Positions 2,810 through 15,733 of a stretch of DNA of 20,319 nt are shown one piece after another (the stretch's first letter is position 1; the number at the start of each line of letters is the position of its first letter). The notes beneath the pieces were generated by a model. It did no database searches and was not told where the DNA came from. It saw only the letters and a program-made list of their open reading frames with translations. This stretch comes from a virus: the IMG/VR virus record IMGVR_UViG_3300020185_000324, positions 1 through 20,319 of that record; one strand, given 5' to 3'. A program made the position numbers and the translations under genes.

Positions 2810-3019
2810 GAACTATTTAGCTATTTGTAAACTATTACCAGTATCAACACTTCACCTTTTTTGTTATCATTAGCAGCGCAGTAAGTCTTTGATCTATTTA
2901 GACTATTTAGTTGCAATATGCAATGCTATTTAGGTTCTATTTTGCCTCTTTTTTGTGGCTGTGCAGGTACAATAATAATCTACAGCAACATCGACCCTCC
3001 CCCGTCCCTAAATAGTAAC

Positions 3020-3038
3020 ACGAATCATTCTCATTAGC
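3020..3038 (-). promoter_or_regulatory. Weaker Fur-like box
   Basis: On the minus strand this reads GCTAATGAGAATGATTCGT, matching the classical 19-bp Fur consensus at 13 positions and sharing AATGAGAAT with the two stronger sites at 3067 and 3098. It is in inverted orientation to them. Confidence 0.45.
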
Positions 3039-3066
3039 GTTATTGTTAGCAACAGACTACGCAGAT

Positions 3067-3085
3067 GCGAATGAGAATCATTATC
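3067..3085 (+). promoter_or_regulatory. Fur-like iron box, copy A
   Basis: GCGAATGAGAATCATTATC matches the classical Fur consensus GATAATGATAATCATTATC at 16 of 19 positions, and in the 7-1-7 description (TGATAATnATTATCA) matches 13 of 14 specified bases. The same 20-bp string (including the preceding T) recurs 31 bp downstream, about three helical turns away. Fur is the host iron-responsive repressor. Whether this phage uses host Fur or another protein with a similar site is inference. Confidence 0.6.
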
Positions 3086-3097
3086 GTTTAGCCAGGT

Positions 3098-3116
3098 GCG
3101 AATGAGAATCATTATC
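3098..3116 (+). promoter_or_regulatory. Fur-like iron box, copy B
   Basis: This copy is identical to copy A over 20 bp (3097-3116). With the following A, TGAGAATCATTATCA matches every base of the 7-1-7 Fur consensus except one. A CTATTTAG motif follows 4 bp downstream and the LexA-type array begins 46 bp downstream. Confidence 0.62.
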
Positions 3117-3162
3117 ATTACTATTTAGATCTGCATTATCAGAGCGTGTGAGTCTGTGCTGG

Positions 3163-3216
3163 TACTGTACAGCCATACAGTACTGTACAGCCACACAATA
3201 CTGTACATCCATACAT
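3163..3216 (+). repeat. Three tandem 18-bp repeats containing LexA-type (SOS) boxes
   Basis: Units at 3163-3180, 3181-3198 and 3199-3216 share TACTGTACAKCCAYACA, each differing from the first at two positions. Unit 1 with its right flank reads TACTGTACAGCCATACAGTA, a perfect CTGT-N8-ACAG box with TA on both sides, as in the gammaproteobacterial LexA site; units 2 and 3 match 7 of the 8 conserved bases. The junction of units 1 and 2 is the perfect palindrome TACAGTACTGTA (3176-3187). Two readings are possible: SOS/LexA operators ahead of the early genes, or replication iterons, which also occur as tandem repeats of this length. Confidence 0.75.
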
Positions 3217-3348: not shown

Positions 3349-3382
3349 GAACGCAGCTAATCACTAACCATTGGAGCTTGAC

Positions 3383-3568
3383 ATGGAAGACGCAAAAGTT
3401 TACTTAGCAGAGAGGACACCTGAAGGGTATGTTATACAGTCCGAGCGGGCAGCATCGATAGCTGACTTCAGGCTAACGATGAAGGAACTGGGCACGGTTT
3501 ACAATTCCGCGCTTGGTATTTGGGAATCAAATGACGGCCATGATTACTGGCCGGAGGAGCAATCATGA
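3383..3568 (+). CDS. Small acidic early protein of unknown function
   Basis: This 61-residue product is the first rightward gene after the control region. ATG at 3383 is preferred over TTG at 3371 because GGAG (3373-3376) sits 6 nt upstream of it. The protein is acidic, tryptophan-containing and ends in a segment rich in Asp, Glu and Trp (residues 47-61), with no membrane segment or motif I recognise. The stop overlaps the next ATG (ATGA). Small first-transcribed phage genes often encode host-takeover or anti-defence proteins, but nothing in this sequence shows that. Confidence 0.7.
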   Translation: MEDAKVYLAERTPEGYVIQSERAASIADFRLTMKELGTVYNSALGIWESNDGHDYWPEEQS

Positions 3569-3771
3569 AATATACATTCGAGCCGGAAGTAGTTTATGAG
3601 GCAGACAATGGTGAGACTGGCGTTTTGGCGCAGGTTGTTACGACCAGCAATATTCGCTGGAAGTTCAAGGTTGTCGTTCACGATGTCGATGAAGGCGAAA
3701 TTGTGGGCACCAAGTCTTTCGAACACCGGGACGATGCGGAAGCTTACGCCGATAGCTGTACCTTCGACTAA
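3565..3771 (+). CDS. Small acidic protein of unknown function, upstream of the ribozyme
   Basis: The 68-residue protein has a beta-rich look (VVTTSNIRWKFKVVVHDVDEGEIVG) followed by an acidic helix with DDAEAYADS. GGAGGAG lies just ahead of the ATG, which overlaps the previous stop codon. No family recognised. The stop codon (3769-3771) is immediately followed by the first base of the hammerhead ribozyme, so ribozyme cleavage would leave this gene and the one before it on the 5' product, ending in a 2',3'-cyclic phosphate hairpin. Confidence 0.75.
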   Translation: MKYTFEPEVVYEADNGETGVLAQVVTTSNIRWKFKVVVHDVDEGEIVGTKSFEHRDDAEAYADSCTFD

Positions 3772-3826
3772 CCACACTGATGAGCCTGTGAGACTCAGGC
3801 GAAACGCCCCCACGGGGTGTCTGTGG
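3772..3826 (+). ncRNA. Type I hammerhead self-cleaving ribozyme
   Basis: All core elements are present in order. Stem I 5' strand CCACA (3772-3776) pairs with UGUGG (3822-3826). Core CUGAUGA is at 3777-3783. Stem II pairs GCCUG (3784-3788) with CAGGC (3796-3800) around a 7-nt loop. GAA (3801-3803) follows, with A3804 pairing U3820. Stem III pairs CGCCCC (3805-3810) with GGGGUG (3814-3819) around loop CAC, including one G-U pair. The cleavage triplet is GUC, with cutting expected after C3821. Stems II and III are closed by loops and stem I is open, which defines type I. Stem I is short and no loop-loop tertiary contact is obvious. It lies on the coding strand between a small gene and the GP88 gene, so it would process the early mRNA. 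Confidence 0.93.
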
Positions 3827-3858
3827 AAGCCACCACTAATAAACACGAGGGTTAAACC

Positions 3859-4509
3859 ATGCTTAAACTTTCTAAAGCTTCAAAGATGCCGTGCCGTTCG
3901 TGGTCGCTGCAAGCGCTAGACACTTGTCCAGGTTCGCGAGATAAAAGCGGAGAACTTGTTCCGGCTTGTTCGGGATGTTATGCAACGGACGGTAATTATC
4001 GTTTTAAGAACGTTAAAGCGCCGCGCCTACACAATCGCGAGGATTGGAAACGCTCGGATTGGGTTGATGATATGGTCGCTGAATTAGACAATGATCGGCA
4101 TTTTCGGTGGTTTGATAGCGGCGACGTTTACGATGTCAGGTTAGCTAAAAAGATTTTTGAAGTATGCGAGCGCACGCCTTGGGTTAGTCATTGGATACCT
4201 ACGCGCATGCACAAATTCGCAAAGTTCAAGCCTGTACTTTCCGAGCTTGAAGCATTACCGAACGTGGTGGTTCGCTTGTCTAGCGACTCAATAACGGGAG
4301 AGACTATAAGAGGCGCGACTACTTCGACAATTACAACGCTTGACAATGTGCCAGAAAATGCGCAAATATGTGAAGCATACACGCGAGAAGGCAAGTGCAA
4401 AGCGTGCCGCGCTTGCTGGGATAAAACCGTGCAAGTGATAGCCTACATTGGACACGGTCGCTCAATGTTGAAACAGCAACGGAACGCTGACATAATTGCG
4501 GCAGCATAA
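3859..4509 (+). CDS. GP88-family phage protein with two cysteine clusters
   Basis: The 216-residue product resembles the phage GP88 family: CSGCYATDGNYRF (37-49), RWFDSGDVYD (83-92), HWIPTRMHKF (111-120) and the C-terminal CKACRACWDK (180-189) ending near IAYIGHGR. Cysteines C12, C23, C37, C40 and C171, C180, C183, C186 could hold metal, perhaps an iron-sulfur cluster; this is inferred from spacing, as the family's activity is unknown to me. The start has GAGGG upstream in a 37-nt leader created by the ribozyme cut. The gene is followed by the SprT-like gene, and a partial second copy of the 3' end lies at 5067, so this pair once existed twice. Confidence 0.75.
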   Translation: MLKLSKASKMPCRSWSLQALDTCPGSRDKSGELVPACSGCYATDGNYRFKNVKAPRLHNREDWKRSDWVDDMVAELDNDRHFRWFDSGDVYDVRLAKKIFEVCERTPWVSHWIPTRMHKFAKFKPVLSELEALPNVVVRLSSDSITGETIRGATTSTITTLDNVPENAQICEAYTREGKCKACRACWDKTVQVIAYIGHGRSMLKQQRNADIIAAA

Positions 4510-4528
4510 CTTTAAAGGAGTTTTAATT

Positions 4529-5065
4529 ATGGAAAGGGTAACCGAGGAATTTATAACGAGTATGGTGTGGGCATTCCATGAGGTTCTAGACAAAGAGCTC
4601 GAAGTTAAGCCGCACAATTACAAACACCCATTGCGCACAGTTGTAATAAATAAGAGGATGAAACGCGCATTAGGGCGCGCAAACATTAGAGGGCGTCTTG
4701 AGATAGCCGGTTTTTTTGTTGGGCTGGAAAAGACAGAAGACAACCTTGACCAATTATTTGACACTATCATGCATGAATTGGCGCACCTTTATGTAGGCAT
4801 TCAAGAAGGGCATAACAAAAAATGGCAGCGCATGGCGCTTTACATGGGCGCCAGGCCTGAAAGAGCGGCGAGGGCCAACGATGACATACAAAGAGCAACG
4901 CAGCCGCCATGGCTATTGGTAGCTACGCTATCGTCGGGCAAAATAGTAAAATGCAAAACAGCGTACAAAAGGACGTTTAAGTATTTGGAACGTCCAAGCG
5001 CCTATAGTATAAGCGGCGAAACGGTTCAAAGTTTCCAATGGATTAGACTATCAAAGGCGGCGTGA
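4529..5065 (+). CDS. SprT-like zinc metallopeptidase-type protein
   Basis: The 178-residue product carries the zinc signature HELAH (residues 82-86) with E83 as candidate catalytic base and a third ligand in GHNKKW (H95), the layout of SprT/Spartan-like domains. Cellular Spartan proteins cut proteins crosslinked to DNA; the phage role is unknown. The C-terminal part contains beta-strand-like segments without the CxxC zinc ribbon of many relatives. ATG 4529 is chosen for its AAAGGAG 8 nt upstream; an in-frame ATG at 4496 lies inside the GP88 gene. The C-terminus borders a duplicated sequence (5067-5225), showing past recombination at this gene's end. Confidence 0.75.
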   Translation: MERVTEEFITSMVWAFHEVLDKELEVKPHNYKHPLRTVVINKRMKRALGRANIRGRLEIAGFFVGLEKTEDNLDQLFDTIMHELAHLYVGIQEGHNKKWQRMALYMGARPERAARANDDIQRATQPPWLLVATLSSGKIVKCKTAYKRTFKYLERPSAYSISGETVQSFQWIRLSKAA

Positions 5066-5066
5066 A

Positions 5067-5225
5067 CGTGCCGTGCTTGCTGGGATAAAGCCGTCAAGGT
5101 GGTCGCGTACATTGGACACGGTCGTTCAATGTTGAAACAGCAACGGAACTCTGACATAATCGCAGCGGCATAACTTTTTTAAGGAGGGAGTGTTACTTAT
5201 GGAAAAATTGGAGCGCGAACAATGA
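5067..5225 (+). pseudogene. Remnant of a second GP88 3' end plus the start of a second SprT-like gene
   Basis: Bases 5067-5173 match 4403-4509 without gaps with about 13 differences in 107, mostly silent. In frame they encode the last 34 residues of the GP88 protein, CRACWDK to the stop. The copy continues through a similar Shine-Dalgarno (AAGGAGG) into ATGGAA at 5199, as at 4529, but this second reading frame stops after eight codons. A diverged tandem copy of the GP88-SprT pair has therefore been lost by deletion, leaving only the junction. The short frame ends in ATGA, which starts the next tiny gene. Confidence 0.85.
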
Positions 5226-15103: not shown

Positions 15104-15733
15104 ATGTCGACAAATAAATATAGATTTGTATCGGTAGACGGCAAGGAGCAATTACTTCACAGGGCATTGTGGGAAGCTGCTAATGGCACTATACCAGAGG
15201 GTATGCAGATAGATCACATCAACGGAAACACTCTCGATAACCGCCTAGAAAATCTGCGAGTGGTTACGCATCAAGAGAATGCGCGGAACCAGAAGAGGCG
15301 CAACGACAATACGTCAGGAGTCACTGGAGTTTCTTGGAACAAGAAGAAGCAGAAGTGGGAGGCACGGATAACCGACAACGGCAAGTTGGTCTTTCTGGGC
15401 TTGCATGACGACTGGTTTGAGGCAGTATGCGCCAGAAAATCAGCAGAGAAGCGGCTGGGTTACCATGAGAACCACGGCAGGGTTATGCTGGAAACGAACA
15501 AAGACGACAGGGTTAGGCGTGGACAGCGCCACTTAAAGCAGCGCAATAACAAGTCAGGGGTTAACGGAGTCTGTTGGGATAAACAGAGCCAAAAGTGGCT
15601 TCCGCAAATAAGCGACAACGGCAAGAAAGTTTATCTTGGCCGTTATGCTAACTTGGCCGATGCGGTTAATGCTCGTAAGGCGGCGGAGGCGCAGCTAGGC
15701 TACGCCCCAGACCACGGAAAGCTTGTGCTATAA
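15104..15733 (+). CDS. HNH homing-type endonuclease with two AP2 DNA-binding domains
   Basis: The 209-residue protein begins with an HNH nuclease domain (H19, IDHINGN with D37/H38, LDNRLENLRVVTHQENARNQ), followed by two AP2-like domains: residues about 70-120 (SGVTGVSWNKKKQKW) and about 150-200 (SGVNGVCWDKQSQKW). The two halves also share ISDNG/ITDNG, YLG/FLG, ARKxAExxLGY and HG, so the region after the nuclease is an internal duplication. Such free-standing enzymes spread by cutting a target in related phages, often next to conserved genes like reductases. AAGGAG lies ahead of the ATG, 15 nt after the reductase stop. It is the last rightward gene. Confidence 0.9.
   Translation: MSTNKYRFVSVDGKEQLLHRALWEAANGTIPEGMQIDHINGNTLDNRLENLRVVTHQENARNQKRRNDNTSGVTGVSWNKKKQKWEARITDNGKLVFLGLHDDWFEAVCARKSAEKRLGYHENHGRVMLETNKDDRVRRGQRHLKQRNNKSGVNGVCWDKQSQKWLPQISDNGKKVYLGRYANLADAVNARKAAEAQLGYAPDHGKLVL

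Follow-up and report, generated by a model that had tools for sequence, protein, structure and literature searches.

The window analyzed here is the whole of a 20,319-base virus record from an uncultured phage, in which rightward genes run from near position 3383. The genes flanking the feature under study are listed below, and replication genes follow the last of them.

3383–3568, plus strand: ORF1, 61 aa, matching no family; would lead the 5′ product of the predicted cleavage
3565–3771, plus strand: ORF2, 68 aa; its TAA stop (3769–3771) adjoins stem I of the hammerhead
3847–3851, plus strand: likely ribosome-binding site of GP88, GAGGG, assigned from sequence
3859–4509, plus strand: GP88-family protein (PF17338, E 2.9e-32); would lead the 3′ product of the predicted cleavage
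4529–5065, plus strand: SprT-like protein (PF10263); would come second in the 3′ product

A single relative of ORF2 was found, on contig L123 (57% identity), and none among named phages. Comparison of the whole region with named phages at the DNA level yielded one weak match (65.6%), located inside GP88. The last 111 nt of GP88 (4403–4513) recur beyond the SprT-like gene at 5067–5177 with 88% identity, as if a duplication event had brought in the SprT-like gene. Farther downstream, a free-standing HNH endonuclease (15104–15733; phrog_99, E 5e-74) directly follows the ribonucleotide reductase gene. Upstream of the early genes, AATGAGAATCATTATC repeats occupy 3065–3120 between divergent gene blocks, with a weaker inverted copy at 3018–3042. 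These repeats differ from the Fur-box consensus TGATAATNATTATCA by 1 and 2 mismatches, and the window holds three Fur-box matches at ≤3 mismatches versus a mean of 1.0 in shuffles; iron-dependent host control of the phage promoters is a possible reading of these sequences. Shortly before the early genes, at 3164–3207, tandem ACTGTACA repeats, overlapping as ACTGTACA...ACANTACTGTACA and absent from shuffles, look like operator sites.

The gap between ORF2 and GP88 contains the following elements.

3772–3826, plus strand: type I hammerhead ribozyme, 55 bases, with stems II and III closed and stem I open
3772–3776, plus strand: 5′ strand of stem I, CCACA, pairing with TGTGG at 3822–3826; seen in covariation
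3777–3783, plus strand: catalytic core CUGAUGA, from the motif; columns invariant in relatives
3784–3800, plus strand: stem II, GCCUG (3784–3788) with CAGGC (3796–3800), around the 7-nt loop UGAGACU
3801–3803, plus strand: catalytic core GAA, from the motif; columns invariant in relatives
3804–3820, plus strand: stem III, ACGCCCC (3804–3810) with GGGGTGT (3814–3820), seven pairs including A15.1-U16.1, around the loop CAC
3821–3822, plus strand: predicted cleavage site, between 3821 and 3822, after C17 (3821), placed from the motif
3822–3836, plus strand: conserved tail UGUGGAAGCCACCAC, in which GUGG (3823–3826) can pair with CCAC (3833–3836) after cleavage

Every invariant core position is present (C3, U4, G5, A6, N7, G8 and A9 at 3777–3783; G12, A13 and A14 at 3801–3803), A3804 and U3820 form the A15.1-U16.1 pair, and H17 is C3821, not G. 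Three helices surround this core, and helix I is the one left without a loop. Judged from its sequence, 3772–3826 is a complete type I hammerhead ribozyme. A preliminary description of this DNA had reported the core, a GUC cleavage triplet, the A15.1-U16.1 pair and three stems, and each element was recovered where it had been placed. Its further statements that the motif begins at the base after the ORF2 stop codon and is sense to the operon also proved accurate, the hammerhead and the early genes all lying on the plus strand; the distance from the end of the motif to the GP88 start at 3859 was corrected from 33 to 32 nt. Hammerhead cleavage leaves a 5′ product ending in a 2′,3′-cyclic phosphate and a 3′ product beginning with a 5′-OH, which would read 5′-OH-UGUGG here. 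The proposed split into an ORF1-ORF2 part and a GP88-SprT part with a 37-nt leader stands as a prediction from the position of the motif.

The structural claim was then weighed against chance. With the window left out of its training, a covariance model scored the site at 70.4 bits (E 2e-19), whereas the next best site reached 10.7 bits, and a finder demanding all core bases and three helices returned no site in 1.08 Mb of dinucleotide-matched random sequence. A search with the pattern CTGATGAG, the loop TGAGACT and CGAAA, in which pairing was not required, matched 31 viral contigs. All 31 share a 28-base spacing and pair along the whole of a 5-bp stem II, and type I stems I and III were also present in 28; a hammerhead of the type III permutation can be read in L106, one of the remaining three. 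The covarying stems that the preliminary description had proposed seeking in relatives were evident in the 28-RNA alignment, which served as a gauge of how much the paired bases vary: 98.4% of base-pair cells were paired, and changes occurred on both sides in 13 of 16 pairs. The covariation score of this alignment was 0.565 versus 0.150 in shuffles, none of 500 shuffles reached the observed level, and pairing collapsed in controls in which the partner strand was slid. Moreover, RNAalifold recovered the hammerhead fold from the relatives unaided. CUGAUGA, GAA, A15.1 and U16.1 were invariant in 28/28 relatives, an invariance that the search pattern partly imposes on the core and imposes less on A15.1 and U16.1. 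The A immediately 5′ of stem I was likewise invariant in the 28 relatives, in which loop II was fixed by selection; this is what would be expected if loop II made a tertiary contact with the periphery of stem I. A larger hammerhead set was gathered with core patterns and, in part, a pairing filter, so that its pairing rate is not independent evidence; given this bias, the structural claim rests on the 31-contig pattern and the model trained without the window.

Rfam, by which the preliminary description had suggested confirming the motif, gave no match at the gathering threshold, Hammerhead_1 included. The best sub-threshold matches were RAGATH-1-hammerhead (20.0 bits) and Hammerhead_3 (17.3 bits); RF00163 did not appear at E ≤ 10 among matches reported as the best per clan. 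The Rfam gathering score is a curated detection threshold rather than a structural definition, and a single gathering match came from ten other loci that together contain several dozen junction hammerheads. Since Rfam misses most junction hammerheads of the same build, the negative result says more about the models than about the window RNA, and standard Rfam annotation overlooks most of these elements.

Folding predictions depended on the length of the transcript. For the isolated 61-nt core, the hammerhead was the minimum-energy fold (−23.1 kcal/mol), whereas in longer context the minimum-energy fold was a different one (−31.6 versus −23.1 kcal/mol). With a more stable alternative in the longer transcript, cutting would have to win during transcription, and misfolding could compete with the hammerhead unless cutting were co-transcriptional. 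In one predicted fold only, ACCUUCG, from the last bases of ORF2, paired in the uncut RNA with CGAGGGU, the ribosome-binding site of GP88.

Scans of other contigs identified a few hundred hammerheads, and most of these occupied junctions between genes on viral contigs. Placement was quantified for the 228 that had 300 nt of sequence on both sides in the scanned contigs. An upstream sense-frame stop codon fell within −20 to +14 nt of the core in 184 of them (81%), a start codon followed the cut by 15–45 nt in 133, and both held for 108; at control positions shifted by 200 or 400 nt, the corresponding rates were 2–13%, 2–12% and 0–4%. The stop codon was the UGA inside the catalytic core in 21 of the 228. 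On L123, for instance, the ORF2 homologue ends in the core UGA of a type I hammerhead, and the core UGA of the next hammerhead, 475 nt on, is likewise a gene stop. Stem I follows the stop codon directly in the window and L052, and the two share one base in L047. The L047 and L052 records carry one hammerhead each; in the window, two type I models run with filters off found no further hammerhead, and a search for types II and III listed none. Elsewhere, hammerheads form series: 10–11 at successive junctions within 6.3 kb of L175 (2292–8607), seven in L131, six in L174 and five each in L155 and L162. L207 (4983–7270, minus strand) has five at successive junctions, three of type I, one of type II and one of type III, and its first type I hammerhead is nearly identical in sequence to that of the window. 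A 479-aa protein of L175 matched, among named phage records, a single 485-kb uncultured phage (37%), and 45 kb of that related phage gave no match to the type I model.

The preliminary description had considered a self-cleaving RNA in a phage operon unusual. That view was not supported: a 2011 report (PMC3088659) already describes such RNAs, and our scans add a few hundred. The window RNA, which almost certainly cuts itself, is one of a large group of ribozymes, most of them without annotation, that lie exactly at gene junctions in many phages and probably cut long messages into smaller pieces.

Cultured phages also carry hammerheads without annotation. Streptomyces phage R4 (NC_019414.1), a phage of S. 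coelicolor A3(2), has type II hammerheads at 46461–46515, 48224–48275 and 48907–48958 on the minus strand, within its leftward gene cluster, and phiELB20 has four of type II. Unannotated type I hammerheads occur in the Acinetobacter phages JeffCo (MW176034.1, 24290–24337) and Alexa (MT375042.1, 34949–34996); their stem I is CCCAT/ATGGG and no annotated gene lies closely 3′, a placement that differs from that of the junction set. Given the junction placement, the processing idea could be tested in cultured phages; R4 on S. coelicolor A3(2) would be a convenient laboratory system.

We also compared what surrounds related hammerheads. An identical 52-nt hammerhead was present in seven contigs representing five unrelated gene contexts, and homology stopped 0–13 nt upstream and 0–21 nt downstream of it. 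The window's own module, CCACA...TGTGGAANYCACCAC, was shared with ten further contigs, where it precedes at least five downstream genes other than GP88, and a tail of the UGUGGAAGCCACCAC kind was present in ten other contigs. Comparison with L005 delimited a larger unit.

3350–3846, plus strand: swappable cassette comprising ORF1, ORF2 and the hammerhead; homology to L005 ends at 3349 and resumes at 3847

Relatives of GP88 that are 92–98% identical have other genes before GP88 and no hammerhead, and by model 78 of 80 GP88 relatives lack one. In the remaining two, L047 and L052, a hammerhead with the same loop II and different paired bases lies upstream of GP88. We accordingly rejected an origin within the GP88 lineage, and the homology boundaries indicate that the hammerhead arrived with a cassette swapped in before GP88. 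The preliminary description had held that homologous phages failing to keep the stems or core would count against it. Homologues without the element do exist, as the 78 of 80 attest, but no decay of stems or core was seen; because the whole cassette before GP88 differs in the closest relatives, what they display is absence of the module. A separate case is L110 (2928–2985, minus strand), in which the 5′ half matches one junction type, the 3′ half another, and stem I is unpaired; this apparent hybrid would be a recombinant or an assembly chimera.

We propose that the hammerhead is a gene-junction processing module that cuts the early message in two, with the break between ORF2 and GP88, a reading to which we assign a probability of roughly 75%. 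It takes as its basis the observed structure, covariation, sense orientation, junction placement and modular sharing, to which it would add cleavage in the cell, distinct fates for the products and a benefit to the phage. The hammerhead would be transcribed within the early message, fold once stem I closes, and cut itself between 3821 and 3822. The 5′ product would be an ORF1-ORF2 message with stems II and III, shortly beyond the stop codon, as its structured 3′ tail, and the 3′ product a GP88-SprT message whose 37-nt 5′-OH leader would place a short hairpin ahead of the ribosome-binding site. This GUGG/CCAC hairpin, once freed, might protect the new 5′ end. A post-cleavage hairpin was found in 18 of 259 hammerheads versus a shuffled mean of 6 and maximum of 13, and we rejected it as a general feature; it is mainly a property of the window's subfamily. 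The likely use of cutting would be to uncouple the two halves of the message in stability and translation, which would allow a cassette to be inserted at the junction without its neighbors depending on it. The capacity of such arrangements to cut is established for other hammerheads, the tandem phage and prophage sets of PMC3088659. Conversely, the processing explanation is weakened by the close GP88 relatives that manage without a hammerhead.

That patchy presence among GP88 relatives would also fit a selfish or hitch-hiking module, one that uses its own conserved sequence as a site of homologous recombination to spread between phages, brings the phage little benefit, and is tolerated as a cutter owing to its position between genes. 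The sharp homology ends of the 52-nt hammerhead shared by five unrelated contexts, the recurrence of the window's module before at least five other downstream genes, and the apparent L110 hybrid with its broken stem I all point the same way. However, the strong helix covariation argues that pairing is under selection and not merely copied, placement is mostly confined to the narrow gap between stop and start, and no movement gene is attached. We regard a selfish module as a serious but unlikely alternative to message processing.

It is very improbable that the element is instead a structured intergenic hairpin that shields the upstream message at its 3′ end or stops exonucleases, self-cleavage then being a side activity or missing altogether. 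Two strong hairpins do stand right after the stop codon, and the 5′ cleavage product would retain both; yet a simple hairpin needs none of the CUGAUGA, GAA, A15.1 and U16.1 that are exact in 28/28 relatives, nor would it explain why the junctions of one operon show this core in three circular permutations. An intrinsic terminator between the operon halves, suggested by the G+C-rich hairpin of stem III between genes, can be dismissed, since no T run follows the motif and a terminator scan of the plus strand found nothing at the hammerhead.

The processing reading can be extended, tentatively and at somewhat less than even odds, to a general punctuation system in which hammerheads of many tailed phages cut messages and also serve cassette exchange. 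If so, modules of 50–70 nt, each consisting of stop codon, ribozyme and leader, would sit at successive early-gene junctions, cutting the polycistronic message into smaller units and offering short shared sequences for the exchange of cassettes. Each gene would bring its own processing site, and the window would contain one such joint, before GP88.

Several known systems resemble this element. Hammerhead_1 (RF00163, clan CL00010) shares the core, the three helices with an open stem I, the GUC triplet and the A15.1-U16.1 pair, whereas the window RNA has a stem I of only 5 bp before conserved flanking UAA/AA, the loop II UGAGACU, a location between phage genes instead of within an animal repeat, and a score below the Rfam gathering threshold. 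RAGATH-1-hammerhead (RF03152) also has a hammerhead core and scores 20.0 bits in the window and up to 42 bits in L175, but these values lie under its gathering score of 56.3, and its extra 5′ hairpin fits only poorly, over a 49-nt insert. The HDV-like theta ribozymes of gut phages are likewise small self-cleaving ribozymes in phage genomes, but they form another class, linked in PMC10879173 to tRNA-based recoding.

A close precedent is the work of Perreault and colleagues, published in 2011. In that work (PMC3088659), hammerheads of phages and prophages are clustered and flank genes, are suggested to process long phage transcripts, and in tandem sets cleave in vitro, one set also in E. coli; examples include an Agrobacterium ardA triple set, Azorhizobium, Clostridium scindens and phage PaP3. 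All three hammerhead types have been recorded for phages (PMC7761336), and a 2017 review treated the role of prokaryotic and phage hammerheads as an open question (PMC6155905). The window hammerhead resembles the 2011 examples, some of which cleave, in being sense, between phage genes and a candidate for transcript processing; it differs as a single copy before GP88, whereas theirs are frequently, though not necessarily, clustered. Stop-codon overlap, module boundaries and 10–11 copies per 6.3 kb are features of the window's relatives that do not figure in the accessible portion of that report, and an incomplete search of the literature found no paper describing stop-codon placement, sharp module edges and high copy number per operon. 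We claim no priority for these placement features: hammerheads of this kind are already known in phages, and the window contributes a new member. Collectively, the comparison ties phage hammerheads to a precise place: in sense orientation they follow or span a stop codon, and often a start codon comes 15–45 nt later. Sometimes one junction after another is occupied in this way, and all three permutations can occur within one operon.
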